From positions 62,001 through 126,000 of the forward strand of contig NZ_JAJSON010000023.1 of assembly GCF_022410465.1 (NCBI RefSeq): DNA of 64,000 bases, given 5' to 3'. A model generated the notes under the pieces. That model was not told the DNA's origin and ran no database searches. It worked only from the letters and a program-made list of their open reading frames with translations. Source of the stretch: Christiangramia crocea. Its GTDB lineage: Bacteria; Bacteroidota; Bacteroidia; Flavobacteriales; Flavobacteriaceae. Both the position numbers and the translations under genes were made by a program. Below, piece after piece: positions 7,311 to 64,000 of the stretch (position 1 is the first letter of the stretch; every line of letters starts with the position of its first letter).

Positions 7311-8445
7311 TTTCAGAGTAGTTTAATTCGGCACGAATCTTTCCTGGTGAATTTGACTTTTTACCAAGACTAATAGAAAAAGTGGTTCCATGTTCCTCAT
7401 CACTTTCCAGACCTACTTTTCCTCCATGTGCCTGGGCCACACTTTTTACAAGTGTAAGCCCCATACCCCAGCTTTCAAGATTTCCAGTCTGAACACTACG
7501 AGCACGATTAAGGAATTTGAAAATCTCTGACTGGTTTTTTCTGGCAATAGGCTTACCATAATTATGAACTTTTATGATCACATGGTCATCTTTATCTTCT
7601 ACCATGATTGTAACGGGAGTACTATGTGACCCATATTTAACCGCGTTAGTAACCAAATTTTCAATGACTCTCCTAACCGCAGTTCCGTCGAAAATACCTG
7701 TTATTTTTTCTGAATCACACTTAAAACCTATTTCATTGGTAAATATCTGCGAAGCCTCCTTATACACCCATTTCAGTTCTTTGACTAAATCAATCTCTTC
7801 AAAGTTAAGGGTAATCCCCTCGCCAGCCTGGACGCTGATCGCATCAAGAAGCCCCTCTAGAAGTTCAAGGGATTTCTCCAAACTCTTCATCCCCATATTT
7901 TTAAGATTCTGAAACCTTTCTTCAGAATCACCGTGGTGCAGGATGTCCAGGGCGAAATAAGCCGTAGAAATAGGGGTTCTTATATCATGAGCCAGGGTGC
8001 CCACAAGTTTCTCACGCATTTCCTGCAAAGAATCACTAAACGAACTGGCCGAATTGAGCATCGCATTTTCAAGAGTATACTTAAGTATAATCCCTACTTC
8101 TTTAGTATAGACACTATGTTCAATTAATATTTCAGTTAAGACCCGGTGAAAGACCACGTATTCCTTCAATATCTGTTTGACTGTATAATGAGAAGAAGTT
8201 GCACGATGCCTTCCATGGTCCAGGCTGTTTTTCATGATCTCCCGGTATTCTTCATGCTTATGAATCCCTTTAAAATCATCATACCTGGTCATTATTTCAG
8301 AAATATCGTCCAGGAGATTCGGCAACTGATTCCGAACCGCCAAACTGGATATATTGGAAGCTTCAATCTCCAGCTTTACAGCCCGCTCCCAGTCATCCAT
8401 TATCCTGTTACTATTTTGTTTTATTATTTCAGCTGCAAGTCTCAT
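7306..8445 (-). CDS. Soluble sensor histidine kinase with RsbRD-like N-terminus
   Basis: 379 residues from ATG 8445 (a TTG two codons upstream is less likely). Residues about 1-145 are all-helical and resemble the RsbRD N-terminal sensory domain (DWERAVKLEIEAS near the start). The HisKA phosphoacceptor region is GTLAHDIRTPISTAYFALD, the N box is ENLVTNAVKYGS, and the G boxes are SWGMGLTLVKSVAQAHGG and EEHGTTFSISLG. No membrane segment is present, so it should sense a cytoplasmic signal. No response regulator gene is adjacent, making it an orphan kinase. Confidence 0.88.
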   Translation of the reverse strand: MRLAAEIIKQNSNRIMDDWERAVKLEIEASNISSLAVRNQLPNLLDDISEIMTRYDDFKGIHKHEEYREIMKNSLDHGRHRATSSHYTVKQILKEYVVFHRVLTEILIEHSVYTKEVGIILKYTLENAMLNSASSFSDSLQEMREKLVGTLAHDIRTPISTAYFALDILHHGDSEERFQNLKNMGMKSLEKSLELLEGLLDAISVQAGEGITLNFEEIDLVKELKWVYKEASQIFTNEIGFKCDSEKITGIFDGTAVRRVIENLVTNAVKYGSHSTPVTIMVEDKDDHVIIKVHNYGKPIARKNQSEIFKFLNRARSVQTGNLESWGMGLTLVKSVAQAHGGKVGLESDEEHGTTFSISLGKKSNSPGKIRAELNYSEN

Positions 8446-8463
8446 TATCAATTAAATAACGCT

Positions 8464-8494
8464 TAAAATTAACTTAATTTTTGTTTTTAAGCAA
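8464..8494 (-). promoter_or_regulatory. Candidate promoter of the sensor kinase gene
   Basis: On the minus strand TTG, a 20-nt spacer and TAATTTTA (one mismatch to TAnnTTTG) lie 19 bp before the ATG at 8445. Confidence 0.4.
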
Positions 8495-8535
8495 CCTAAA
8501 CTGTTGATACCCTAAATCTATCTTAAATTTATCAT

Positions 8536-9562: not shown

Positions 9563-10576
<1,014 letters not shown>

Positions 10577-51200: not shown

Positions 51201-51920
51201 TTAAATTCCGCCTGATAATTTCTTTTTCAATACCGGCTTTTCATCCATTATAAAATCTGCAGCCAGCTGTGCATGTAACTGGGTAGTGGCTATAAGTGGA
51301 AATTCAACTTCTTCCTGATCCAGAAGCATAGGAAGCTCGGTACAGCCCAGGATTACTCCTTCAGCACCTTGTTGCTGGAATAACTTTATCTGTTTTAAAT
51401 AGAATTCCCTGGCTTTATCAGTGAATTGTCCCTGGGTTAGCTCCTGGGAAACAAAATAATGTGATCTTAGAATATCATTGTGTGGTGGAAGCAGAGTTTC
51501 TATCCCAAAATTTTCTTTCAGGTAATCTGGTATGAATTTCCCAGTGACCGTAGGTTTATTACCAAGTAAACCAAGTTTAGTAAGTCCCTGCCTTTTAGCT
51601 TCCCTTCCAATAGCCTCTCCTATATGGAGGACAGGAATATCAAGTTGCGGCTGGATATATGAGTATGTCATATGTGGCGTGTTGGCACAGATCAATATAG
51701 CTTCGGCTCCCGCCTCCTGAAGCTTTTTTGAGACTTCCAGATATTTTGCGTTGATCTTATCATGGTCCTGTTGCCTCATCAGTTCAATATTGATGCTGTA
51801 TATGATTAGTTGTGGATTGGCCTGTGTACCTATTTTTTCACTAACCAACTCATTAATCAACTTATAATATACGATGGTAGAGTGCCAGGAGGTCCCTCCT
51901 ATCATGCCAAGCGTTCTCAT
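51201..51920 (-). CDS. Aspartate/glutamate racemase family protein
   Basis: 239 residues of the PLP-independent Asp/Glu racemase superfamily. The two catalytic cysteines are in AILICANTPHMTYS and GVILGCTELPMLL, each in its usual context; the N-terminus MIGGTSWHSTIVYYKLIN is typical of aspartate racemase. The gene is monocistronic. A CRP/FNR-like dyad and a -7 element lie directly upstream in the same geometry as the neighbouring sulfur genes. Confidence 0.9.
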   Translation of the reverse strand: MRTLGMIGGTSWHSTIVYYKLINELVSEKIGTQANPQLIIYSINIELMRQQDHDKINAKYLEVSKKLQEAGAEAILICANTPHMTYSYIQPQLDIPVLHIGEAIGREAKRQGLTKLGLLGNKPTVTGKFIPDYLKENFGIETLLPPHNDILRSHYFVSQELTQGQFTDKAREFYLKQIKLFQQQGAEGVILGCTELPMLLDQEEVEFPLIATTQLHAQLAADFIMDEKPVLKKKLSGGI

Positions 51921-51946: not shown

Positions 51947-51990
51947 TAAAGTTACATCTTATACAGGATTTTGGCTGTAACAAATGTTAC
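51947..51990 (-). promoter_or_regulatory. CRP/FNR-like box and -7 element of the racemase gene
   Basis: Dyad GTAACAAATGTTAC at 51977-51990 (centre 51983.5) and, on the minus strand, TAACTTTA at 51954-51947 (one mismatch to TAnnTTTG). Centre to last base of the -7 element is 36.5 nt. Confidence 0.65.
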
Positions 51991-51993
51991 TCC

Positions 51994-52030
51994 AAAAAAA
52001 AGATGATAGTGGTTCTTACTATCATCTTTT
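51994..52030 (-). terminator. Terminator of the rhodanese-DUF2892 unit
   Basis: AAAAGATGATAGT (51998-52010) and ACTATCATCTTTT (52018-52030) form a perfect 13-bp stem with a 7-nt loop; a U-tract follows on the minus strand. Confidence 0.8.
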
Positions 52031-52059
52031 GTACTCTTTCCGGTAATTACCCTGAAAAT

Positions 52060-52278
52060 CTAATTTTTAGTCTGGTTTTCCTGAATATCGCAACTACCAT
52101 TATAACAACTTCCGCCGGCACAGCCAAAACCAAACAGTCCCATAAAAGACATATAGAGTCCGAGAACAATCCCTATCCACTGGTCATAATTAGCGGCCTG
52201 GATAATCATTGCAACACCTATAATTAGGTAAATTACGCGCCCCAGGGTCCACCCTTTAAGAAGTCTGTCCTTTATCAT
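52060..52278 (-). CDS. DUF2892 (YgaP-type) membrane protein
   Basis: 72 residues: a basic N-terminus, two hydrophobic helices (VIYLIIGVAMIIQAA and WIGIVLGLYMSFMGLFGF), and a Cys-rich tail FGCAGGSCYNGSC. DUF2892 helices are often fused to rhodanese domains, as in YgaP; here the domain is a separate gene whose start overlaps the rhodanese stop by 4 bp (ATGA). The three cysteines could carry sulfane sulfur or bind metal (inference). Confidence 0.85.
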   Translation of the reverse strand: MIKDRLLKGWTLGRVIYLIIGVAMIIQAANYDQWIGIVLGLYMSFMGLFGFGCAGGSCYNGSCDIQENQTKN

Positions 52279-52592
52279 GATATTTTCCTCTCCAGATTTC
52301 TCCAGCCTCCTCCATTATGAACATTGGTATACCCAAGGTTTTTCAAAATGCTCTTTGCACTTCCACTCCTCATCCCCGATGCACAGCAGGTAATAATAGA
52401 CTGATCCTTTTTCTTCAGTTTAGCCAGATTGTGATTCAGACTATTAAGAGGAATATTTTTAGAACCTTTAATGTGGCCTGCGGCATATTCGTTTTTGGTA
52501 CGTACATCCACAATAATTCCACCGTTCTTTAGTAACTCCGAATAATCAGGTTTAGGTTCAGATTTAAATAGTTGCTTTAATATATTAATCAT
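52275..52592 (-). CDS. Rhodanese-like protein, second of tandem pair
   Basis: 105-residue single rhodanese domain: GIIVDVRTKNEYAAGHIKGS, NIPLNSLNHNLAKL and the active loop ITCCASGMRSGSAKS. The catalytic Cys is preceded by another Cys. No signal peptide is seen. It handles sulfane sulfur or thiosulfate-type donors in the cytoplasm. It is 3 bp after the first rhodanese gene and is coupled to the DUF2892 gene. Confidence 0.92.
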   Translation of the reverse strand: MINILKQLFKSEPKPDYSELLKNGGIIVDVRTKNEYAAGHIKGSKNIPLNSLNHNLAKLKKKDQSIITCCASGMRSGSAKSILKNLGYTNVHNGGGWRNLERKIS

Positions 52593-52595
52593 AAA

Positions 52596-52874
52596 CTAGG
52601 AAAATTTTAAATAGTTAATTTCAAGCCAGGATCCACCATTGATACATTCAATGTTCTGTGCCTGCAGGTATCTCTCTACTTGTCCGCTTCTCATTCCTGA
52701 GGCGCAACAGAGGATAAGGGGTGCAGGTAATTGTTTTAATTCTTCCAACCTGTCCGGGATCTCTGTAAGGGGAATATTCTTAGACCCATCAACATGACCG
52801 GAACTATATTCTCCCGGGCTTCTCACATCTACGATGGTACCTTGATTTTCTTTTATTAATACTTCTGTTTGCAT
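52596..52874 (-). CDS. Rhodanese-like protein, first of tandem pair
   Basis: 92 residues from ATG 52874; the longer frame starts at TTG 52901, which lies in the promoter. The domain shows TIVDVRSPGEYSSGHVDGSK, NIPLTEIPDRLEEL and the active loop LILCCASGMRSGQVERYL, with the same two-Cys loop as its neighbour. The pair looks like a local duplication that has diverged. It is the first gene of a three-gene unit. Confidence 0.92.
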   Translation of the reverse strand: MQTEVLIKENQGTIVDVRSPGEYSSGHVDGSKNIPLTEIPDRLEELKQLPAPLILCCASGMRSGQVERYLQAQNIECINGGSWLEINYLKFS

Positions 52875-52898
52875 ATTTTTCTTTTCAGAATTATGTGG

Positions 52899-52942
52899 CA
52901 AAAATAAATCCCATAAGACTCTTGCACAGTTACTTATGTTAC
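52899..52942 (-). promoter_or_regulatory. CRP/FNR-like box and promoter of the rhodanese unit
   Basis: Dyad GTTACTTATGTTAC at 52929-52942 (centre 52935.5) and, on the minus strand, TATTTTTG at 52906-52899. Centre to last G is 36.5 nt. Predicted start about 52894, 20 nt before the ATG. Confidence 0.65.
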
Positions 52943-52996
52943 AAAAGATTTTGGTAATTTTTAGCCGGCATTTTATAAATTCCTTTTAGAAATTGA

Positions 52997-53203
52997 TCAG
53001 CTTTTGTTCAGTTCTTTATCATTGGTAATTCCAAACTTCTTTAATATATCCTCCATCAAACACCATTGGGTTAAGGAAGACTGAAGCAGGTTGGCTCCCA
53101 CAAAGGCAGTGAACCAAAGCCAGTTTATATTTACATAAATGGCAAGCATCAAACTTATTAAAATAAATGTTCCGGCTACGCCGCGTACTATTCTGTTTCT
53201 CAT
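52997..53203 (-). CDS. DUF2892 membrane protein
   Basis: 68 residues: MRNRIVRGVAGTFILISLML starts the first helix, and the second is WLWFTAFVGANLLQSSLT; then QWCLMEDILKKFGI. This YgaP-type two-helix unit with the late Cys is common beside rhodanese genes in Bacteroidetes. It is 16 bp after the PII-like gene and is probably the last gene of the efflux operon. Confidence 0.85.
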   Translation of the reverse strand: MRNRIVRGVAGTFILISLMLAIYVNINWLWFTAFVGANLLQSSLTQWCLMEDILKKFGITNDKELNKS

Positions 53204-53219
53204 TTTTAATGTATTTTAA

Positions 53220-53519
53220 TTAGATATATCTTTCAATGGGTAATACAACAGCTCTTACCGGATTATCGGTTTCGAGCTGTTCGTTATATGCTTTTACAAG
53301 CTTAAAGAAGCTGTCTATTTTGTCATCTTCGGTAAAACTAAAAAGCATTACCGATTCGTTGCCTCCCTTTTCACTTGGAAACCAACTCTGGGTAGCGATA
53401 AGAGAATTTCTATAGCCATCTATTTCTGAAGTACTGAAAGCTTCGATATGGGATTCCCTGAACAGCTTCAGGATATCCTTATGAAATTCTGATAGCGAAG
53501 TAACAATTAATAATTTCAT
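53220..53519 (-). CDS. PII-like/DUF3240-type small protein
   Basis: 99 residues with a ferredoxin-like beta-alpha-beta pattern: KLLIVTSLSEFHKDILKLF, SHIEAFSTSEIDGYRN, ESVMLFSFTEDDKIDSFFKL and the C-terminal VRAVVLPIERYI. Small PII-like proteins are encoded next to RND metal-efflux genes in other bacteria and may sense a ligand or metal. It follows the RND permease gene after a hairpin-containing 57-bp gap. Confidence 0.7.
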   Translation of the reverse strand: MKLLIVTSLSEFHKDILKLFRESHIEAFSTSEIDGYRNSLIATQSWFPSEKGGNESVMLFSFTEDDKIDSFFKLVKAYNEQLETDNPVRAVVLPIERYI

Positions 53520-53538
53520 CTTTTTACTGGTTTTAAGC

Positions 53539-53567
53539 TACCGAATCCCTGAATCAGAGATCCGGTA
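53539..53567 (-). other. Intercistronic RNA hairpin after the RND gene
   Basis: On the minus strand TACCGGATCTC and GGGATTCGGTA pair over 11 bp with a 7-nt loop. Two pairs are G-U wobbles that would be A-C mismatches on the other strand, so the structure fits the transcribed strand. There is no U-tract, so mRNA stabilisation or processing is more likely than termination. Confidence 0.45.
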
Positions 53568-53576
53568 ATTTTGGTT

Positions 53577-56500
53577 TTATTTATGGTTTTTCTTTTCAAT
53601 CATATAATATACCAGCGGTACTACCAGTAGTGTAAGTACTGTAGAAGCAATGGTTCCTCCCATTAGCGAGATCGCCAGACCCTGAAAAATAGGATCAAAG
53701 AGGATCACAAAAGCTCCGATCACCACCGTACCTGCGGTAAGCAGGATAGGCGTGGTTCTTACAGCTCCGGCTTCGATCACGGCCTGCTTCAGCGGAATTC
53801 CTTCTTCCAGCCTCAGGTTCACGAAATCGATGAGGAGCACCGAGTTCCGGACCATAATACCCGCCAGGGCAATCATTCCGATAAAGGAAGTCGCAGTAAA
53901 GAAAGCTCCCATTATCCAGTGACCTAGCACGATACCCACAAGGGAAAGCGGAATGGCCACCATCATCACGATTGGTGCTTTAAAGTTCTGGAACCAGCCA
54001 ACGATCAGGATATAAATGATTATGATCACACCAAGGAATGCGATTCCCAGGTCTCTGAAAACCTCCAGGGTGATCTGCCATTCTCCATCCCATTTAACCG
54101 TAAAGTCATCCTCATACTGAGGTTGCTCCATATACAGCTCATTCATAGTATAACCTTCAGGAAGCTTAATATCCTTGAGCTTCTCTTCCATTCCCAGGAT
54201 GGCATAAACCGGACTCTCAAGTTCCCCGGCCATATCGGCCAGTACGTAAACCACTCGTTTCTGGTTCTTCCGGTAAATGTTCTTTTTCCGCACATCTTCC
54301 TTCACCTTCACAAGATCCCCAACAGAGACCATCTGTCCGTTTTGTGAATGGATCTGGATCTGGGAAATGTCGTTTACTGAAGACTTTTCATTTTCGTTCA
54401 GTGCCAGTACTATTCCCACAGGCTCGGCAGCATCTTCATCATAAAGCTGGGTTACAGCATTTTCTCCAAGAGCGGTATTAAGGGTGTAGACTATCTGTTT
54501 TGGAGCCATTCCATAAAGCATCGCCTTTTCCTTATCGATCTCGAACTCGTATTCAGGCTGATCGGCTTCCACCATCCAGTCCACATCTACCACATCTTCG
54601 GTATTGTTCAGAATATCCTGTACTTCAGAAGCCACTTCTATCTGCTTCTCGTAATCAGGCCCGTAAACTTCTGCCACGATAGTAGAAAGTACTGGTGGTC
54701 CCGGTGGTACTTCCACAAGCTTTACATTGGCGTTATATTTAGCAGCTATCTTCTGAACATCGGGACGCATTAATTTCACGATATCGTGACTCTGAGCACT
54801 TCTTTCACCTTTATCTGTAAGGTTCACCTGGATATCGGCCGTGTTACTGGATCCTCGCAGGTCATAATGCCTTACCAGTCCGTTAAAGGTAATAGGTGCC
54901 GAAGCTCCCACATAGGTCTGGTAATTCACCACTTCAGGCCTTTGAGACAGGTATTGCCCAATCTCTTTAGTGACCACAGCGGTCCTTTCCAGAGTAGTGC
55001 CTTCAGGCATATCTATAATTACCTGGAATTCGTTCTTATTATCAAAAGGCAGCATCTTTACTGCTACGGTATTGGTAAAGAACATTGAAACCGAAGCCAG
55101 AAGCAACAGGATAGTTGTCCCCAGGAAGATCCATCGTTTTTTAGGGTTCTCGATCAGAGGTTTTTCAAACTTCGAATATAACCTGTAAATAAAGGTGTTG
55201 TCTATGCTGTTGTCGTTCTCCTTTAATTCTTCCGAATCCTCCTTTTCAACTTTCTTGCCCTTTTCTCTAAGGAAAAGGTATCCAAGGTATGGTGTGATGG
55301 TAAGGGCCACGAATAAGGACAGGATCATCGCGATAGATGCTCCAATCGGCATCGGGCTCATATATGGTCCCATCAGTCCGCTTACAAATGCCATTGGCAA
55401 TACCGAAGCGATCACTGTAAATGTTGCCAGAATGGTCGGGTTCCCAACCTCATTAATGGCGTACAGTGCAGCCTGTTTAAATGGTAAACGCCGCAATTTG
55501 AAGTGCCTGTGCATATTCTCGGCAATAATAATGGAATCGTCCACCACGATACCGGTCACGAATACCAGGGCGAAAAGGGTAATTCTGTTCAGCGTATAAT
55601 CGAGCATATAGTAGCTCAACAAAGTCAGGGCGAAAGTAATAGGCACCGAAAGGAAGACTACAAGTCCGCCTCGCCAGCCCATTGCAAGCATTACCACGAT
55701 GGTTACCGCAATAATGGCTCCTATAAGGTGCATCAGTAATTCGGATACCTTATGGGAAGCGGTTTCCCCGTAGTTCCTTGTCACTTCTACGTGAACATCA
55801 TCAGGAATAAGGTTCTGTTTTAAGTGATCTACCTTTTCGATGATCACATCGGCAATCTGCATCGCATCGGCACCTTTTCTTTTGGCTACCGATAGTGTTA
55901 CCGCAGGATATTCTGAATTATATTCACCTGCCTTTTCATTAGCCTGGCCGTAGCCGAAGCTTACATATTCTTTTGGAAGTTCGGGCCCGTCAACAACTGT
56001 GGCTACCTGTTTAAGGTATACCGGCTGATTATCCTGAACTCCAATAATAAGGTTATTTACATCTTCTTTTGACTCCAGAAAACTTCCGGTAGTCACCAGG
56101 AATTCGGTGTCCTGATTATCGAATTTCCCCGATGACATCTGCTGATTATTGGCTTTGATCTTTTCGGCTATCCCAAGAAAATCAACACCACTGGATGCCA
56201 TTTTGGCCTTATCCAGCACCACGCGTAACTGACGGTTTCTCCCACCTTTAACTTTAGTGATCGAAACATCTTCCACTTTTTCTATCTCGTGGTCCAGCTC
56301 TTCAGCTATCTGTTTTAACTGATAATCATTATAATTCTCACTCCACAGGGTGAGTCCAAGCACCGGAACATCGTCTATAGCCCGGGTTTTGACCATAGGC
56401 TGCGTCACATTTCGCGGCAGCTTATCCATACTCTTCATCAATTCGTTGTAGAGTTTCACGTAGGAACGCTCAATGTCTTCTCCCACATAGAACTGAACGA

Positions 56501-56789
56501 TGATCATTCCCTGTTCTTTCATAGAAGTAGAATAGACATATTCCACTCCCTTAACATTAGATATTATCTTTTCCAATGGCTTGACCACCCGGGACTCGAC
56601 CTCGGTAGGAGAGGCGCCTGGATATCCTACAAAGATATCGGCCATAGGCACGTCTATCTGAGGTTCTTCTTCTCTTGGAATAAGAAAAGAACTGTAAACC
56701 CCAACCACCATAAAGACGATCATAAGCAGTACCGTAAGTTTCGAGTTGATAAAGCCTTTGGCTATTTTACCTGCTAATCCTTCTTTCAT
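53577..56789 (-). CDS. RND efflux permease
   Basis: 1070 residues with the twelve-helix RND plan: TM1 near the start (LTVLLMIVFMVVGVYSSFLI), then PREEEPQIDVPMADI, two large periplasmic loops, and TM4 with LFALVFVTGIVVDDSIIIAE. The paired Asp in TM4 is the proton relay of AcrB-like pumps, which favours organic substrates over the HME metal type. It works with the upstream membrane-fusion and TolC-like genes to span both membranes. The substrate is unknown. Confidence 0.93.
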   Translation of the reverse strand: MKEGLAGKIAKGFINSKLTVLLMIVFMVVGVYSSFLIPREEEPQIDVPMADIFVGYPGASPTEVESRVVKPLEKIISNVKGVEYVYSTSMKEQGMIIVQFYVGEDIERSYVKLYNELMKSMDKLPRNVTQPMVKTRAIDDVPVLGLTLWSENYNDYQLKQIAEELDHEIEKVEDVSITKVKGGRNRQLRVVLDKAKMASSGVDFLGIAEKIKANNQQMSSGKFDNQDTEFLVTTGSFLESKEDVNNLIIGVQDNQPVYLKQVATVVDGPELPKEYVSFGYGQANEKAGEYNSEYPAVTLSVAKRKGADAMQIADVIIEKVDHLKQNLIPDDVHVEVTRNYGETASHKVSELLMHLIGAIIAVTIVVMLAMGWRGGLVVFLSVPITFALTLLSYYMLDYTLNRITLFALVFVTGIVVDDSIIIAENMHRHFKLRRLPFKQAALYAINEVGNPTILATFTVIASVLPMAFVSGLMGPYMSPMPIGASIAMILSLFVALTITPYLGYLFLREKGKKVEKEDSEELKENDNSIDNTFIYRLYSKFEKPLIENPKKRWIFLGTTILLLLASVSMFFTNTVAVKMLPFDNKNEFQVIIDMPEGTTLERTAVVTKEIGQYLSQRPEVVNYQTYVGASAPITFNGLVRHYDLRGSSNTADIQVNLTDKGERSAQSHDIVKLMRPDVQKIAAKYNANVKLVEVPPGPPVLSTIVAEVYGPDYEKQIEVASEVQDILNNTEDVVDVDWMVEADQPEYEFEIDKEKAMLYGMAPKQIVYTLNTALGENAVTQLYDEDAAEPVGIVLALNENEKSSVNDISQIQIHSQNGQMVSVGDLVKVKEDVRKKNIYRKNQKRVVYVLADMAGELESPVYAILGMEEKLKDIKLPEGYTMNELYMEQPQYEDDFTVKWDGEWQITLEVFRDLGIAFLGVIIIIYILIVGWFQNFKAPIVMMVAIPLSLVGIVLGHWIMGAFFTATSFIGMIALAGIMVRNSVLLIDFVNLRLEEGIPLKQAVIEAGAVRTTPILLTAGTVVIGAFVILFDPIFQGLAISLMGGTIASTVLTLLVVPLVYYMIEKKNHK

Positions 56790-56827
56790 TGTATAGCTTT
56801 TAAATTCTTATAATTTTTTGAGTCAGC

Positions 56828-57901
56828 TTATTGTTTGCTCACCGGAGCACCGTTGTATAGTTTTCCTTCAGCATCTACAATGTACTCCTCATCAGCCTTA
56901 AGTCCGGAAAGCACTTCTACCTGGTCGCCATAGGTTTTTCCTAATCTTATCCATCTTAGAAGAGCCATGTTTTGTGAACTTATGGTGTATATGCCTGTAA
57001 GGTCACCACGGTGTACGACAGCTGAGGAAGGAATAAGTACTCTTGCACTTGCTGTTTTTTGCTCCACCGGAATCTCGACACTCACATACATTCCCGACCT
57101 GATCTCATCTCCTGTTTCTTCAAGACTTATCTTTACGGGATACTGGCTTCCGGTATTCTTGGCTGAAGCACTTACCTCTGAAATAACCCCTTTAAGGGTT
57201 TTATCCAGTGTTTTCACATTAACATCTACTTCAGTCCCTTCTTTAATTGAAGAAACATCAGATTCCGGAACGGTGGCTCTTACTTCAAAAGCTCCGGGCG
57301 CTTCCATTGCAACCAATGGCATTCCCGGATTGGCCATATCGCCTTCTTCTACAAATTTGTTGGTGATCACTCCGCTAAAAGGAGCCCGAATGTTTACATA
57401 GGCAAATTGTGCCTGGATCTCATTTTTCATCTGGCGGGCCGCTTCAAGCCTGGCTTTTGCCATCTCATAGTTTGCCGTTATATCGTCCAGTTCCTTTTGG
57501 GAAGCACTGTTCTCTTCAAACAGGTTCTTAAACCTGTTATAATCTTTTTCGGCATTATTATAAGCCGCCTGTGCTTCGGTGATCTTGGCGTTTACCTGGG
57601 CAATTTTTGCCTGCAGGTCTGAGTTATTAATAGATACAAGTAACTCGCCTTTCTTTACTTTATCTCCTATCTGCACATTGATGCGATCTACATAACCCAT
57701 CATCCGGGTGCTTAATTTCGCATTATTCACAGCTTCTATCTTACCGTTAAGGCTAAGGGTGGATCCCTTTTCTGAAGCAGGTGAATTCACCTTTACCGCC
57801 AGGGCCGGTTTCTTTTCCTGTGAAGGCTTCTTATCGTCCCCACAGCTGATAAATAGACTTGCCGCTCCGGCAATTAAAAGAGTATATAATTTCAGTTTCA
57901 T
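56828..57901 (-). CDS. RND periplasmic adaptor (membrane fusion protein)
   Basis: 357 residues, lipoprotein signal ending LFISCGDDKK. The lipoyl/hairpin/lipoyl plan is clear: GYVDRINVQIGDKVKKGELL, a long coiled coil (AKITEAQAAYNNAEKDYNRF onward), then FVEEGDMANPGMPLVAME. The C-terminal beta-barrel follows, with VLIPSSAVVHRGDLTGIY. It bridges the permease and the outer-membrane channel. It is 3 bp downstream of the TolC-like gene. Confidence 0.93.
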   Translation of the reverse strand: MKLKLYTLLIAGAASLFISCGDDKKPSQEKKPALAVKVNSPASEKGSTLSLNGKIEAVNNAKLSTRMMGYVDRINVQIGDKVKKGELLVSINNSDLQAKIAQVNAKITEAQAAYNNAEKDYNRFKNLFEENSASQKELDDITANYEMAKARLEAARQMKNEIQAQFAYVNIRAPFSGVITNKFVEEGDMANPGMPLVAMEAPGAFEVRATVPESDVSSIKEGTEVDVNVKTLDKTLKGVISEVSASAKNTGSQYPVKISLEETGDEIRSGMYVSVEIPVEQKTASARVLIPSSAVVHRGDLTGIYTISSQNMALLRWIRLGKTYGDQVEVLSGLKADEEYIVDAEGKLYNGAPVSKQ

Positions 57902-57904
57902 CGC

Positions 57905-59218
57905 TTATTTTTTGGTTAAAAATTCTAAATATGCCTTGGCATAATTGTATTCGTAAATCGTTTGATAGTATTCGAGTTCCTTTTCAAGGTATTTTGCTTC
58001 TGCTGAGAGTAGGTCTGAAGTTTTTTCGAGCCCTTCCTCATAACGGTTAGTCCTGATTCTTAGGGATTCTTCAGACTGTTGCATTGCAAGTTCGCTGAGG
58101 TTCAGCTTGTTTTCTGCATCCTTAAGAGCTCTTCTGGCTTTATTAAGTTCCATAGTGCTTTTTGACACATATTGCTCATATTCGAGCTTTGCCTGTTCGT
58201 ATTCAGCCCTGCTTTTCTGCGTTTTCCCAATTCGCTTGGAACCTTGAAAAACATCCCAGCTTAATGAAACACCAGCGATATATCCACTGGCATCCCCCTG
58301 GAAAATATCTTCATCATAAAGCTCGTAGCTGCCAAAGGCATTTAATCTTGGTAAAAAGCTCATCTTATCGGCTTTATACATATCCTTTCTTGCTTCCGTA
58401 GCCAGTTCCATAGCCTTGATATCTGAACGCTCTTCGGAAATACCGGCATTTTCAGTCTCTACGAGAGAGTTTATCTGCAGGGAATCTGTAGGCTTCAGGA
58501 TTCCTTCCTGTGACTGTCCCATTAAGAACTCCAGGTAGTCTGAAGCATTTTCAAGGTTACTTTTTGCATAATGCAAACTGTTATTGATCTCAGACACCCT
58601 AACTTCCACAGAGAGGATATCGGCTTTTTGGAGATAGCCCTGCTTATATCTGTCACTGGCCATTTTCTGATTGGATAGCGCGGCTTCACGGGCCTTCTCC
58701 AAAACATTCACTGCTTTATAGGCCAGCTGAAGCTCCATATAGGCTTTTTCCACCTCCAGCTTCATATAATCCCCTGTACGTTCTCCTTTCAGGCGGGTAG
58801 CCTCCATTTTAGAATCGGCGGCCTTTCTTTTAAAGATACCGTCAAGATTCACCAAAGGTTGCTCTACCTCGATTTTTGTAGCAAAATTATTGATGCGATC
58901 CGGGTCATTAAGAAGCGCCGGATCAAAATCGCTTTGGTTGATCCTTTCCTGGTTCAGTTTAGAACCAAAGGCCATAAGTGGATTATTAGTGGTCATCCCC
59001 GTATGGGAAACACTAATATTAGGCAGAAAGACCGCATTGGTCTGCCTGTAATCTGCCCGGGCCTGCAGGAATTCCTGCTCCGAGATCTTTAATTTCCTAT
59101 TGTTTTCCATCACTCTGTTCAACACTGTATCTTTACTAACCGGTTGTACCTGCTGGGCTCTGATAGGGAGACCTGCAAGAAAGAGGAGTAGAATTGCAGA
59201 GAGTTTTATTTTCTTCAT
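57905..59218 (-). CDS. TolC-family outer membrane channel protein
   Basis: 437 residues with signal peptide MKKIKLSAILLLFLAGLPIRAQ. Two repeats of the TolC alpha/beta pattern: VLEKAREAALSNQKMASDRY and ALKDAENKLNLSELAMQQSE, with the periplasmic helical barrel and FLPNISVSHTGMTT near a strand. It is the first gene of the efflux operon (TolC, adaptor, permease, PII-like, DUF2892). Confidence 0.92.
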   Translation of the reverse strand: MKKIKLSAILLLFLAGLPIRAQQVQPVSKDTVLNRVMENNRKLKISEQEFLQARADYRQTNAVFLPNISVSHTGMTTNNPLMAFGSKLNQERINQSDFDPALLNDPDRINNFATKIEVEQPLVNLDGIFKRKAADSKMEATRLKGERTGDYMKLEVEKAYMELQLAYKAVNVLEKAREAALSNQKMASDRYKQGYLQKADILSVEVRVSEINNSLHYAKSNLENASDYLEFLMGQSQEGILKPTDSLQINSLVETENAGISEERSDIKAMELATEARKDMYKADKMSFLPRLNAFGSYELYDEDIFQGDASGYIAGVSLSWDVFQGSKRIGKTQKSRAEYEQAKLEYEQYVSKSTMELNKARRALKDAENKLNLSELAMQQSEESLRIRTNRYEEGLEKTSDLLSAEAKYLEKELEYYQTIYEYNYAKAYLEFLTKK

Positions 59219-59237
59219 TATTTATGATTTTCTGTTG

Positions 59238-59281
59238 CAAAAATAGGCCAGAGGTGCAGGCATTTCTGCAACCTTTGTTAC
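59238..59281 (-). promoter_or_regulatory. CRP/FNR-like box and promoter of the efflux operon
   Basis: Dyad GCAACCTTTGTTAC at 59268-59281 (centre 59274.5) and, on the minus strand, TATTTTTG at 59245-59238. Centre to last G is 36.5 nt. Predicted start about 59233, 15 nt before the TolC-like ATG. Confidence 0.6.
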
Positions 59282-59403
59282 CCAAGCATATTTCAAACTA
59301 TCTGGTTTCAGTAGGAAAGAAAGTTCATATTAAATAAATAGAGAGGAAGAGTGAGGCTGCGCAAATCTTTTGACCTTAAAAAGAGATCACATTAAATCGG
59401 AAC

Positions 59404-59447
59404 GTAACAAAAGTTACATTCAGGAGATAAGTAAAATATTACATTTG
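59404..59447 (+). promoter_or_regulatory. CRP/FNR-like box and promoter of the DoxX-DsbD unit
   Basis: Dyad GTAACAAAAGTTAC at 59404-59417 (centre 59410.5) and TACATTTG at 59440-59447. Centre to last G is 36.5 nt. The predicted start (about 59452) falls right at the GTG of the first gene. Confidence 0.65.
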
Positions 59448-59452
59448 CTTTT

Positions 59453-59812
59453 GTGAGTACAAAAACCTTTATTTCTATACTATTAATTCCCCTTTTTCTT
59501 GGGAAACTATTGATCGTAGATGCAAGTTTGCTCAATATTCTGGCTGAAGATGAAATTTCCTTTGTTAAACCATATTGCCAGAAGAAACAATCAAATTCAG
59601 ATATTAAGAAAACATATGAATTCAAGCAGAATTTAGATGCGAAGAATAATATTACTGAAGTAAGTAGTTTTTGTACTCCTCAGTTCAATTTTAATGTCTT
59701 CTCATGGAATTTCAATATTTCTGAAGTTATCAACATAGAAGACATACTATTCTCTTCAAGATTAAGCTATCTCTATCTGGATAGCCACTCCCCTCCACCC
59801 AAATTTGTGTAA
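59453..59812 (+). CDS. Small exported hypothetical protein, SPPP tail
   Basis: 119 residues from a GTG start; no in-frame ATG exists. A hydrophobic N-terminus (FISILLIPLFLGKLLIV) suggests export or anchoring. The middle has single Cys residues in VKPYCQKKQ and SSFCTPQFNF, and the C-terminus is LYLDSHSPPPKFV; similar proline-rich tails occur in short Bacteroidetes proteins near transporters. It heads a plus-strand unit with doxX, dsrE-like, tlpA-like and dsbD genes. The function is unknown. Confidence 0.65.
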   Translation: MSTKTFISILLIPLFLGKLLIVDASLLNILAEDEISFVKPYCQKKQSNSDIKKTYEFKQNLDAKNNITEVSSFCTPQFNFNVFSWNFNISEVINIEDILFSSRLSYLYLDSHSPPPKFV

Positions 59813-59890
59813 TTGAGATTTTAGCATTTTCTGCACTGATATCTTACATCGGTCCAGACCAGATTATCAATTACAATAACACCTATAATA

Positions 59891-60295
59891 ATGACGAACA
59901 AAATTCATATTAGTCGTCGTTCCATACAGTTATTACGAATTTTGGTTAGTGGAATTTTCCTGGTGGCAGGAGCAAATCATTTGCTGAATACCACGAAAAC
60001 AGTCCGCCGACTTGAACAGGCCAGTTTTAAAGGAATCGCCTATTTTTTTGGTGATCCGGAATGGCTTGTCATCCTCTCCGGAATCGTAATGCTGGCAGCA
60101 GGTTTTTTATTCCTGATAGGATATAAAACCAGATGGGCGGCCATCATATTATTACTTGTATTAATCCCAATAACCCTATCGGTACAGGTAGGGCAGATAA
60201 ACACTCTTGGACCACTTTTTAAAAATATAGCAATTCTGGGTGGTCTGTTGTTTTTTATCATAAATGACACCGATAAACTTTTTAAACTTAAATAA
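59891..60295 (+). CDS. DoxX family membrane protein
   Basis: 134 residues, four helices: LRILVSGIFLVAGANHLL, WLVILSGIVMLAAGFLFLIG, WAAIILLLVLIPITLSVQV and KNIAILGGLLFFII. DoxX/DoxD relatives are linked to thiosulfate:quinone oxidoreduction and to thiol or redox homeostasis. The DsrE-like gene starts 1 bp after its stop. Confidence 0.85.
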   Translation: MTNKIHISRRSIQLLRILVSGIFLVAGANHLLNTTKTVRRLEQASFKGIAYFFGDPEWLVILSGIVMLAAGFLFLIGYKTRWAAIILLLVLIPITLSVQVGQINTLGPLFKNIAILGGLLFFIINDTDKLFKLK

Positions 60296-60296
60296 A

Positions 60297-60713
60297 ATGA
60301 AAACAATTCTTTATAGCAGTATTTTGCTGATGCTAACATTATTTACCGGAAATCAGGCACAGGCACAACATAACTCCAAACATAATTATGTGGTGCTTAC
60401 CAAAAAAGTTCCGCAACTGCAGCCAATTTTAATAACGGCTGAAAGACTGAAAGAAGAAGATGGCGCCCATTTTGGCGAATTTGAGATCATCATCTGTGGA
60501 AAAGAGATAGGTGATATAACCGATTCTTCAAAAATGGGAAAGTTCATTACCAAAGCTGAAAAGTTAGGAGTGAAACTCGTAGCCTGCGGATTTTCTCTGA
60601 ATAAATTCAAGGTAGACAAAGAGGCGGTTCCAAAGGAAATGAAAGTAGTTGAAAATGGTATTCTTTACAATTTTCAGCTTCAGAAAAAAGGATATCTGAG
60701 TCTCAGTCTTTAA
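60297..60713 (+). CDS. DsrE-like exported protein
   Basis: 138 residues from ATG 60297, which gives a signal peptide (MKTILYSSILLMLTLFTGNQ, cleaved near AQAQ); the longer frame overlaps doxX. The DsrE/F-like fold is suggested by HFGEFEIIICGKEIGDI and LGVKLVACGFSLNKFKV, with a Cys in the position used for sulfur transfer in DsrE-type proteins. Export is unusual for the family but seen in Bacteroidetes. Likely a periplasmic sulfane-sulfur carrier (inference). Confidence 0.8.
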   Translation: MKTILYSSILLMLTLFTGNQAQAQHNSKHNYVVLTKKVPQLQPILITAERLKEEDGAHFGEFEIIICGKEIGDITDSSKMGKFITKAEKLGVKLVACGFSLNKFKVDKEAVPKEMKVVENGILYNFQLQKKGYLSLSL

Positions 60714-60756
60714 TAAAACCCCAGAAAAAACCATTCTCAATAAAAGGAGATAAATC

Positions 60757-61389
60757 ATGAATAATAAAAAAAAGAATATGAAGCAAACCTGGATCCAGTA
60801 TTCCATATTTGGTGCGATAGCCCTGGTGTTATATGCTACTGGCCTACACACCGAGGTGATAGGATTTGCACAAAGAGGTTTACTTGAAACCGGCTTAATG
60901 AATCCTGATGTAGAGGAAAAAACAGCTATAGCACATGTAAATAATGCTGAACCTGAATCTCTGAAAGGCATCAATAGTAATCCAGAAGCCAGCTTCGATT
61001 TACAACTTCGGGATGAAGAAGGTAATATCGTTGCCTTAACTGACTTCAAAGGCAAAGTGATCTTTATGAATTTTTGGGCGACCTGGTGCCCGCCATGTGT
61101 GGCAGAGATGCCAGCCATAGATAGGTTACACCAGGAAATGGGAGATGAAGTAGCATTTGTAATGCTTTCTATGGATCAGAATTTCGAAAAAGCGGTCTCC
61201 TTTAAAGAAAGGAAAGATTACGGGTTACCAATTTATGAACTGGCGAGCCAGCTACCAGCCATGTATCGTTCTACGGCCCTCCCTACTACCTATGTGATTG
61301 ATGCCGATGGTAAGCTTGCCCTTACACATAAAGGAATGGCCGATTATGATACCGATGAGTTCAAAAAATTCCTGAAGAGCTTAAAATAA
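60757..61389 (+). CDS. TlpA-like thioredoxin-fold protein
   Basis: 210 residues. An N-terminal anchor helix (WIQYSIFGAIALVLYATG) is followed by an AhpC/TSA-thioredoxin domain with MNFWATWCPPCVAEMPA (Cys111 and Cys114), FVMLSMDQNFEKA and the cis-Pro region ALPTTYVIDADG. It is a periplasmic disulfide reductant, probably kept reduced by the DsbD encoded next. A strong Shine-Dalgarno-like AAAGGAGA lies 6 bp before the ATG, which is uncommon in this phylum. Confidence 0.92.
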   Translation: MNNKKKNMKQTWIQYSIFGAIALVLYATGLHTEVIGFAQRGLLETGLMNPDVEEKTAIAHVNNAEPESLKGINSNPEASFDLQLRDEEGNIVALTDFKGKVIFMNFWATWCPPCVAEMPAIDRLHQEMGDEVAFVMLSMDQNFEKAVSFKERKDYGLPIYELASQLPAMYRSTALPTTYVIDADGKLALTHKGMADYDTDEFKKFLKSLK

Positions 61390-61418
61390 ATGCTTTTCAA
61401 TTCTAATTAACAGGCTGT

Positions 61419-63455
61419 ATGAAGAGATTAAAATTAGTAATGGCTTTTGTAATGCTGGCTTTAGGTATATCTGCCTACGGCCAGGTTACGGAGGCCCCGG
61501 AGTGGAAAGCCGAAATAAGGGATAAATCATTTGATGCAGGTGATACGATCACGGTAAAATTCACCGCAAAAATCCCGGACAAATGGTATTTGTATTCCAG
61601 CGATTTCAATCCAGACCTGGGACCTACGGTAACAGAATTTCAATTTGATGAAAATCCGGAATTTAAAGTCATTGATTCAGTAGTTCCTGTTGGTGCAAAA
61701 CGAAAATATGATGAAATATTTGAAGGGGAATACACCTATTTTACTAAAGAAGCTGTTTTCAAACAAAAAATTGAGATCCAGGGCAAAGATCCGGTTATAA
61801 ATGCTGTGGTCTCTTACCAGATCTGCTCTGATGAAAATGGCCAGTGTATCCCTTTTACCAGTGAGATACCGGTTACAGGTATTAAGCAAAACTCTACTGG
61901 AGAGAAAAATGAGGAACTAGAAGTGCGCGAGATGCAGGCTTTTCAGAATAATTTTAGATCTGGCAATGAACAAAAAGAGGGTGTCTCGTTCCTGATATCA
62001 TTTTTCCTAGTGTCTTTCGGGGCAGGACTGGCGGCAATATTAACGCCATGTGTTTTTCCAATGATCCCCATGACCGTTTCCTATTTTACCAAATCCGGCA
62101 GCAATAGGAAAAAAGGAATTTTCCAGGCCCTGCTCTATGGTATTTCTATCATAGTCATTTATACGATGGTCGGTACTTTGTTTTCTGTACTGTTTGGGGC
62201 GGCATTCGCCAATTTCCTTAGTACACACTGGATCCCGAATCTGTTATTCTTTGCTGTATTCGTTCTGTTTGCCTTATCGTTTTTCGGGCTCTTTGAAATA
62301 CGCTTACCAAACAGCCTGATAAATAAAATGGATAAACAGTCAAATAAAGGAGGGCTAATAGGTATTTTCTTTATGGCATTCACCCTGGTGCTGGTAGGCT
62401 TCAGTTGTACAGGACCTATCGTGGGAACAATCCTGCTTCAGGCTGCCGGCGGCGAAATGCTCAAGCCCCTGGTGGGAATGCTTGGCTTTTCTTTAGCCTT
62501 CGCCCTACCCTTTACCCTGTTCGCAATATTTCCGAACTGGCTAAGGTCTTTACCTAAAAGTGGCGGCTGGCTGAACACGGTCAAGGTTACTTTGGGCTTC
62601 CTGGAGCTGGCTTTGGCACTTAAATTCCTGAGCATAGTAGATCAGGTCTATCACTGGGACTTCCTGAGCCGTGATCTGTTCCTGATCTTATGGATCGTCA
62701 TCTTCTCTTTTCTTGGATTGTATTTGCTTGGAAAGATCACTTTTCCGCATGAAGAAAAAAGAAGCTCAATTTCTATAGGGAGAATGATCTCTGCCTTACT
62801 GGTCTTCAGTTTTGTGATCTACCTAATTCCCGGTCTCCTTGGTGCACCATTGAAAGGATTGGCCGGCTATTTACCTCCTATGAGTTCACAGGAATTCAAT
62901 ATTTCAAAATTAACTGCTAGTAGCAGCATTTCACGTAATGAGAAAGAAAATATTGCTGAATGTGGAGTTCCTAAATATGATAATCTGCTGGAAATACCGC
63001 ATGGAATACATGGTTATTTGGACTACGAGCAGGCATTAAAATGTGCAAAGAAAAAGAATAAACCTCTATTTATAGATTTCACAGGCCATGGTTGTGTGAA
63101 CTGCCGGGAAATGGAAGCCAGAGTCTGGTCAGACCCAAAGGTATTGAAAAGGTTAAAGGAAGATTATGTAGTAGTAGCCTTGTATGTTGATGAAAAAAAA
63201 GAATTACCTGAAAGTGAATGGTATGTAAGTCCCAACGACAACTGGATCAAAAAAACGATCGGTGCACAGAATCTGGATTTTATGATCCAGAAGCTCAATG
63301 CCAATGCTCAGCCTTACTATACCCTGGTAGATAACGACGGATCTTTACTGAGTGCTCCAAAAGCTTATGACCTGAATGTAGACCGGTTCGTGGATTTTCT
63401 TGATAACGGACTGAAAAGGTATAAAAGCCAAAATGACCAGGGAATAAGTTTATAA
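61419..63455 (+). CDS. dsbD: Thiol:disulfide interchange protein DsbD
   Basis: 678 residues, three-domain DsbD. A signal peptide and the alpha domain (DKWYLYSSDFNPD, VSYQICSDENGQCIPF with Cys pair) are followed by an eight-helix beta domain with Cys211 in AAILTPCVFPMIPMT and Cys330 in VGFSCTGPIVGT. The C-terminal thioredoxin domain has Cys559 and Cys562 in TGHGCVNCREMEARVW. It moves electrons from cytoplasmic thioredoxin to periplasmic partners such as the TlpA-like protein 30 bp upstream. Confidence 0.96.
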   Translation: MKRLKLVMAFVMLALGISAYGQVTEAPEWKAEIRDKSFDAGDTITVKFTAKIPDKWYLYSSDFNPDLGPTVTEFQFDENPEFKVIDSVVPVGAKRKYDEIFEGEYTYFTKEAVFKQKIEIQGKDPVINAVVSYQICSDENGQCIPFTSEIPVTGIKQNSTGEKNEELEVREMQAFQNNFRSGNEQKEGVSFLISFFLVSFGAGLAAILTPCVFPMIPMTVSYFTKSGSNRKKGIFQALLYGISIIVIYTMVGTLFSVLFGAAFANFLSTHWIPNLLFFAVFVLFALSFFGLFEIRLPNSLINKMDKQSNKGGLIGIFFMAFTLVLVGFSCTGPIVGTILLQAAGGEMLKPLVGMLGFSLAFALPFTLFAIFPNWLRSLPKSGGWLNTVKVTLGFLELALALKFLSIVDQVYHWDFLSRDLFLILWIVIFSFLGLYLLGKITFPHEEKRSSISIGRMISALLVFSFVIYLIPGLLGAPLKGLAGYLPPMSSQEFNISKLTASSSISRNEKENIAECGVPKYDNLLEIPHGIHGYLDYEQALKCAKKKNKPLFIDFTGHGCVNCREMEARVWSDPKVLKRLKEDYVVVALYVDEKKELPESEWYVSPNDNWIKKTIGAQNLDFMIQKLNANAQPYYTLVDNDGSLLSAPKAYDLNVDRFVDFLDNGLKRYKSQNDQGISL

Positions 63456-63481
63456 GCGAATATTTTAATATACCTGAAAAG

Positions 63482-63520
63482 AAAAAGCCTGTTGGATATC
63501 CCAACAGGCTTTTCTTTATA
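63482..63520 (+). terminator. Terminator after dsbD
   Basis: AAAGCCTGTTGG (63484-63495) and CCAACAGGCTTT (63501-63512) form a perfect 12-bp stem with a 5-nt loop and a T-rich tail. Confidence 0.85.
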
Positions 63521-63735
63521 AAAAAGAATTTGGCCGATCAGTTTATATTAATTGGAAAAGATTGCACCGGCCTAATTATAATGGTCCTAAAATTATTTCA
63601 CCAAAAACTGACAATGGTCATTGTTTTATTGAATTTTTAGAATTATGAATTTATCAATAAAACACCATTAAATATAAAAATAATTATGATTAACGTTAGT
63701 TTTTGCGAAAAAAAATTAAATAATTAAAGGCTATT

Positions 63736-63779
63736 GTAACAATTGTTACTTTCTCAACAAATACCGCATGGTATCTTTA
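63736..63779 (+). promoter_or_regulatory. CRP/FNR-like box and -7 element of the SQR-like gene
   Basis: Perfect palindrome GTAACAATTGTTAC at 63736-63749 (centre 63742.5) and TATCTTTA at 63772-63779 (one mismatch to TAnnTTTG). Centre to last base is 36.5 nt. Predicted start about 63784, 20 nt before the ATG. Confidence 0.65.
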
Positions 63780-63803
63780 TATCAGATTTTTAAAGCTAAT
63801 ATC

Positions 63804-64000
63804 ATGAAAAATTTAGTAATCCTTGGAGCTGGTACAGCAGGTACTATGATGGCGAATCATTTACGGCCCAAATTAAAAAGGTCTGACTGGAATATAACCA
63901 TTGTAGATCAATTCAAAACGCACTACTATCAACCGGGATTTTTATTCCTTCCTTTTGATATGTATACCGAAGATCAGGTTAAAAAAGTTGGAAAAAAATT
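63804..64000 (+). CDS. Sulfide:quinone-reductase-like flavoprotein, 3' end outside window
   Basis: The first 65 codons are visible. The FAD-binding Rossmann motif is LVILGAGTAGTMMANHL, followed by an acidic strand end (ITIVDQ) and THYYQPGFLFLPFDMY, the HxYQPG segment typical of SQR and related type II NADH dehydrogenase-like flavoproteins. SQR oxidises sulfide to sulfane sulfur at the membrane and reduces quinone. The conserved cysteines that would confirm SQR lie beyond the window. Confidence 0.8.
   Translation, partial: MKNLVILGAGTAGTMMANHLRPKLKRSDWNITIVDQFKTHYYQPGFLFLPFDMYTEDQVKKVGKK

Follow-up and report, generated by a model that had tools for sequence, protein, structure and literature searches.

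A putative CRP/FNR-family regulon of fixed promoter geometry at sulfur genes of Christiangramia crocea

Introduction

Why should promoters in front of genes as different as a racemase, a pair of rhodaneses, an efflux operon, a DoxX-containing unit and a sulfide:quinone reductase (SQR) carry the same dyad at the same distance from their −7 elements? The question is raised by a 64,000-nucleotide stretch of the genome of the flavobacterium Christiangramia crocea, here called the window (positions 62,001–126,000 of contig NZ_JAJSON010000023.1, hereafter C15; the genome comprises 3.9 Mb in 32 contigs). A first-pass annotation of the window had proposed that its five such promoters form a single regulon under a CRP/FNR-family activator. 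This proposal is well supported by three sulfur gene clusters, a conserved spacing, co-occurrence of site and regulator, and a matching recognition helix. Taken together, our results point to a real, conserved regulon of fixed geometry, with a candidate regulator identified by good but indirect evidence and a proposed signal, reactive sulfur.

Results

All five dyads close to GTAAC-N4-GTTAC, together with their −7 elements, were found where the annotation had placed them, on the strand of the downstream gene (Table 1). The distance of 36.5 nucleotides (nt) between the dyad centre and the last base of the −7 element was confirmed, and the spacer is exactly 22 nt in 5/5 sites; counted from the midpoint, 7 + 22 + 8 gives 37 positions, which puts the middle of the last base 36.5 nt away. 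We define a composite site as this dyad, a 22-nt spacer and a TAnnTTTR/TAnnTTTG element on the strand of the downstream gene. Three of the five dyads are perfect and two carry one mismatch. The −7 elements, described as TAnnTTTG-like, are present at every site, the exact form TAnnTTTG in three and TAnnTTTA in two. For dyads of the window that carry no more than one mismatch, TAnnTTTR occurs within 60 nt solely at offset 22 and solely at these five sites. Given a TAnnTTTR frequency of 0.00116 per position, the chance of five elements at one offset is about 3e-12, a rough figure for sites that the annotation had preselected. The further claim that the window holds no other such dyad requires amendment: a sixth one-mismatch dyad, ATAACCTTGGTTAC, lies at 9906–9919 within an open reading frame (ORF), with no TAnnTTTR element within 60 nt. 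Two-mismatch dyads gave 31 matches in the window, compared with 15.7 expected. The constant distance to the −7 element is consistent with class II activation; the dyad would be centred at −41.5 if the last base of the −7 element is at −5.

The scan of the whole genome that the annotation had suggested revealed that the dyad recurs with the fixed −7 spacing, giving 14 composite sites (9 exact and 5 with one mismatch), compared with 0 at up to one mismatch for the reversed control. Exact dyads also number 14, and all except those at C5:14350 and C11:105456 fall into three clusters (C3, 33–45 kb; C15, 114–128 kb; C17, 530–540 kb). The C3 cluster contains genes for TauE, a SoxB-like protein (TIGR04486, 258 bits, under the cut-off of 550), a metallo-beta-lactamase (MBL)-rhodanese protein, an SQR-like protein that scores under its family cut-off, a YeeE/YedE pair and a SoxA/TsdA-type cytochrome c. 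The C15 cluster consists of the window genes followed by those for a type III SQR and DsrC/TusE (both over their cut-offs) and a DsrE2-like protein. The C17 cluster holds another MBL-rhodanese gene, located behind the gene for a fatty-acid hydroxylase, a second TauE gene, an additional site upstream of a DUF302 gene, and a cytochrome bd operon whose exact dyad is accompanied by a −7 element with two mismatches. Genes for sulfide or sulfane sulfur make up most of the targets; the MBL-rhodanese proteins are called persulfide dioxygenases from their domain make-up, with no curated family match. The five window sites would be operators of a single regulon of about a dozen promoters, a reading that, jointly with the regulator and trigger proposed below, we regard as somewhat more probable than not, and from these sites the regulator would activate transcription.

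The gene for the activator had been expected just right of the window. It is absent there: C15 extends 2.76 kb further with no regulator-like ORF in that part, and nowhere does this contig encode a CRP/FNR protein that passes the Pfam cut-off. Seven CRP/FNR helix-turn-helix (HTH) domains exceed the Pfam cut-off in the genome, and our candidate is a 210-aa CRP/FNR protein encoded at C17:539640–540272. It carries PF00027 and PF13545 over their cut-offs, which places it in the CRP/FNR family, and its predicted fold matches structures of CRP, NtcA and FNR; it scores below the NCBIfam cut-off for CRP. Its gene ends 4 nt from a dyad that, with a one-mismatch −7 element, points at TauE. Of the 30 loci fetched from relatives, 28 have a site (up to two mismatches) immediately beyond the end of the regulator gene. 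When the set was widened to 140 loci, grouped by the recognition-helix residue described below, this was the case for 68/113 Val-helix and 7/27 Glu-helix loci (exact or one-mismatch sites, with A or G at half-site base 3; one further Val locus was too short to score). The regulator gene is itself the first gene at 7 of the 173 sites in the regulator loci, and autoregulation is suggested in some species. The gene-label count of 129/173 gives no independent enrichment test, because the labels come from a reference set derived from the regulon of this same genome and every locus has the regulator at its centre. A second regulator copy, 61–66% identical, is present in several relatives (G004, G006, G009, G012 and G024), in G009 and G012 beside further composite sites. 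Exact composite sites also occur in G285 and G293, which have no regulator match at E ≤ 1e-30, and may there mark a diverged regulator.

The recognition helix of the candidate reads R-V at the positions of CRP residues 180/181, the sole R-V among the seven proteins, and fits the GTAAC halves. Val helices are accompanied by A at half-site base 3 in 326/354 halves and by G in 17/354, while Glu helices are accompanied by A and by G in 7/14 halves each, a mix of GTAAC and GTGAC. The difference in G (17/354 vs 7/14) gives a Fisher p of 5e-6, uncorrected for kinship, and the Val/Glu state changes at least 4–6 times on the tree. This pattern is in line, though not decisively, with the rule of binding specificity put forward for HcpR2 (PMC1274295). 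The Val/Glu helix difference may represent a natural specificity switch.

The spacing is conserved in relatives. Among 444 strand-oriented exact dyads from regulator loci (Val-class loci and four stretches of the own genome, identical site contexts counted once), TAnnTTTG stands at offset 22 in 101, and the other offsets up to 52 total 16, none with more than 2. A motif-free scan of the 113 Val-helix loci, with duplicates kept, returned 107 perfect palindromes at spacer 22, 96 of them containing GTAAC, and 2–12 at spacers 18–21 and 23–26. Among the variable-gap matches listed for 59 genomes, a hand count found a gap of 22 in 116/150. Across 177 sites, T precedes the first half at a frequency of 0.87, and T and then G follow the dyad at 0.54 each; this TG may be the trace of a −33 element. 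The 59 relatives contain 259 composite sites, compared with 30 for the reversed control, and a composite site was found in 41/50 relatives with the regulator (E ≤ 1e-10) and in 2/9 without it. Of 247 genomes of the phylum, 58 carry regulator and site, 36 the regulator only, 13 the site only and 140 neither (this table and that of the composite sites were compiled by hand).

The putative sensor pocket departs from that of a cAMP-dependent CRP. The cyclic AMP (cAMP) contacts of CRP, which we take to be E72, R82, S83, T127 and S128, are incompletely kept: in the L122 homologue, M, M and L occupy the aligned positions of E72, T127 and S128, and the R/K and S positions are retained. In the alignment with CRP, cysteines C77, C83 and C84 fall on residues 70, 76 and 77, within the phosphate-binding cassette. 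All three are fully conserved in two alignments, of 19 and of 46 relatives; among wider homologues, C77 is present in 140/140 and all three in 103/140. The predicted model has a mean predicted local distance difference test (pLDDT) score of 85.4 overall, with poor values in the cysteine region (block means of 70 and 59). The gene content of the regulon suggests persulfide as the signal.

The genes behind the five sites (Table 1) differ in how often their homologues carry a site. The racemase gene has a spacer-22 site (up to two mismatches) in the fetched flank of 8/14 homologous loci, its own included, some about 400 nt off. Counterparts of the site at the rhodanese pair occur in loci L274 and L275, a homologue of the outer membrane efflux protein (OEP) is the first gene at 8/173 sites in the regulator loci, and for the DoxX unit the homologues elsewhere of DoxX, of TlpA and of the leader ORF each have one site upstream. 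For rhodanese 1 and SQR, translation more probably starts at the internal ATGs (52874 and 63804) because the longest ORFs (52596–52901 and 63768–64000) begin no further downstream than the last base of the −7 element, that of rhodanese 1 at the element itself. Among the annotation's labels for downstream genes, DsrE for 60264–60713 has no Pfam support at E ≤ 0.001, and the Pfam scan gave no match for the first and third ORFs of the DoxX unit. A small ORF of unknown family stands at the head of two regulon units, in the window at 59453–59812 and on C3 (L065, about 8126–8515) upstream of the gene for the SoxB-like protein; by eye the two leader proteins resemble each other. An SQR gene (E ≤ 1e-80) is present in 6/59 relatives, the own genome included, and in 0/23 other genomes of the same genus; it is 95% identical in G030, of another genus. 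This patchiness and the identity across genera suggest that the sulfur cluster at the right edge of the window was recently acquired by horizontal transfer.

Table 1. Composite sites and downstream genes in the window (window coordinates unless marked)
Feature	Position	Strand	Basis or remark
Site 1 dyad GTAACATTTGTTAC	51977–51990	−	perfect
Site 1 −7 element TAACTTTA	51947–51954	−	
Site 2 dyad GTAACATAAGTAAC	52929–52942	−	one mismatch
Site 2 −7 element TATTTTTG	52899–52906	−	
Site 3 dyad GTAACAAAGGTTGC	59268–59281	−	one mismatch
Site 3 −7 element TATTTTTG	59238–59245	−	
Site 4 dyad GTAACAAAAGTTAC	59404–59417	+	
Site 4 −7 element TACATTTG	59440–59447	+	
Site 5 dyad GTAACAATTGTTAC	63736–63749	+	
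Site 5 −7 element TATCTTTA	63772–63779	+	
Asp/Glu racemase family gene	51201–51920	−	Pfam PF01177; downstream of site 1
Rhodanese 2	52275–52592	−	Pfam PF00581
Rhodanese 1	52596–52874	−	Pfam PF00581; probable start at internal ATG
Efflux operon: outer membrane efflux protein, membrane fusion protein, RND pump	53577–59218	−	Pfam OEP, HlyD_D23, ACR_tran
Unit of 119-aa ORF of unknown family, DoxX, unknown ORF, TlpA-like AhpC/TSA protein, DsbD	59453–63455	+	Pfam
Type III SQR gene start	63804–64000, on to C15 about 126967	+	NCBIfam NF049943, 658 bits (cut-off 525), whole gene; probable start at internal ATG

Discussion

We propose that the protein encoded at C17:539640–540272 is the most likely activator and that it would bind GTAAC-N4-GTTAC as a dimer. 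The dyad would occupy the class II position near −41.5, replacing the −33 element of a TAnnTTTG promoter. The trigger would most likely be reactive sulfur, persulfide or polysulfide, modifying C77/C83/C84 in the former cAMP pocket, and the induced genes would oxidise, relay or export sulfur. Judged from sequence, this mechanism in its entirety, comprising the regulon, the C17 activator, the class II sites and the reactive-sulfur trigger, appears to us somewhat more probable than its alternatives combined. For the wider proposal, that in a widespread family of Bacteroidota CRP/FNR activators the cAMP pocket has become a sensor of reactive sulfur built on cysteines, governing a sulfide-oxidation, relay and export regulon with one class II geometry, we consider the chances about even.

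Several observations weigh against this mechanism. The link between helix and half-site base depends on just 7 Glu-class sites, uncorrected for kinship, and 14/83 Val-class loci also carry G; the kinship-corrected test, which left out 50/140 rows without a usable site, had just 2 independent pairs, with the expected direction in most pairings. Another CRP/FNR protein here (L005) has an R-A helix. Because 37/140 homologues are without C83 or C84, the signal may differ between branches. The homologues of SQR have a spacer-22 site in just 2/6 loci, the own locus included, with the dyad alone in 3 and none in 1. In the phylum, 36/94 regulator-bearing genomes have no site at up to one mismatch, and 13/153 regulator-less genomes have one; the reversed control is also tied to the regulator, more weakly (28, 66, 19 and 134 genomes in the same order), and genome make-up thus explains part of the link between regulator and site. 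Finally, the exact composite site at C11:105426–105469 has no correctly oriented gene behind it: no gene of at least 70 aa follows directly on its strand, and the site faces the end of a convergent gene. It may reflect chance, a small RNA or an antisense promoter.

The alternatives concern the signal, the protein and the reality of the regulon. The same regulon and regulator might respond through the cysteines to an oxidant, to nitric oxide, to oxygen via a metal centre or to the thiol redox state. CprK, of the same family, is inactivated by disulfide formation (PMC2610375), homologues bearing C77 alone exist, and the efflux operon, racemase and cytochrome bd genes are not purely sulfur genes. 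However, sulfur genes dominate the content, and one genome has sites at two paralogous MBL-rhodanese, two TauE and two SQR-like genes; we consider a signal other than reactive sulfur unlikely, while taking it seriously. It is quite improbable that a different CRP/FNR protein binds the sites. The gene at C3:40739–41407 lies among the C3 sites, and the R-A helix protein at C17:157082 is also without Glu at the CRP-181 position. As a general regulator, the C3 protein was rejected for being too rare (3/59 genomes at E ≤ 1e-40, own included, while at least two composite sites are present in 24/24 genomes of the genus, own included) and for its different helix, K-E.

The identity of the dyad with the published consensus for HcpR2, the predicted regulator of hcp (PMC1274295), raises the possibility of a nitrosative-stress regulon of that type. 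This appears very improbable, since the genome has no hcp match (PF03063, E ≤ 1e-20), HcpR2 has Pro where the candidate has Val, and the regulator profile found one weak match (E 2.7e-4) in 30 Bacteroidota hcp loci with short flanks. Chance or promoter composition, with no shared regulator, can draw on the fact that two-mismatch dyads are common and that the genome-wide composite search at three mismatches yields noise, with fewer matches than the reversed control (73 vs 149). Nevertheless, the conserved spacing and the reversed-control counts contradict this explanation, to which we assign a negligible probability, and chance was excluded on these grounds.

If the reactive-sulfur mechanism is correct, marine Flavobacteriia would gain a single regulator open to test, precise rules of promoter layout and a list of targets from which the annotation of unknown genes would profit. 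The fixed distance from dyad to −7 element is also a convenient means of studying how class II activation works at promoters of the TAnnTTTG type.

Among the matches listed from the open-access literature, there was no account of this regulon, nor of a CRP/FNR protein for which sensing of sulfane sulfur had been demonstrated. Those matches did include regulators of sulfide and persulfide responses, namely FisR, BigR, a MarR type, PerR and AdpA, which belong to other families. FisR and BigR sense persulfide and control persulfide dioxygenase and yeeE/yedE-type genes in response to reactive sulfur (PMC7315123); unlike the candidate, FisR is a sigma-54 activator and BigR a repressor, and neither is a CRP/FNR protein. 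The Crp of Acinetobacter baumannii was found to be persulfidated, with an effect that is not known (PMC7315123). RedB was set aside because its reported motif is a non-palindromic 12-mer (PMC9603854). The best sequence match in the PDB, 3dv8, a CRP/FNR protein of Eubacterium rectale known by a structural-genomics title only, has cysteines at a similar place but an R-E helix. PgRsp of Porphyromonas gingivalis, for which 3dv8 served as the modelling template, has been put forward as possibly a new CRP/FNR family (PMC6955866); it may be comparable to the candidate and differs in binding heme. HcpR2 resembles the candidate in its predicted motif, GTAACnnnnGTTAC (PMC1274295), and differs in its regulon, hcp, as well as in its helix. 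NtcA of cyanobacteria responds to 2-oxoglutarate and nitrogen at another promoter type, and overall similarity is low: NtcA scores 57.5 bits against the regulator profile, and the candidate falls outside the NtcA family (TIGR03697, 47.8 bits, cut-off 244.95). Like the candidate, however, NtcA has an R-V helix and is among its closer PDB relatives, and the NtcA site, GTAN8TAC, is centred about 41.5 nt before the transcription start (PMC3898017).

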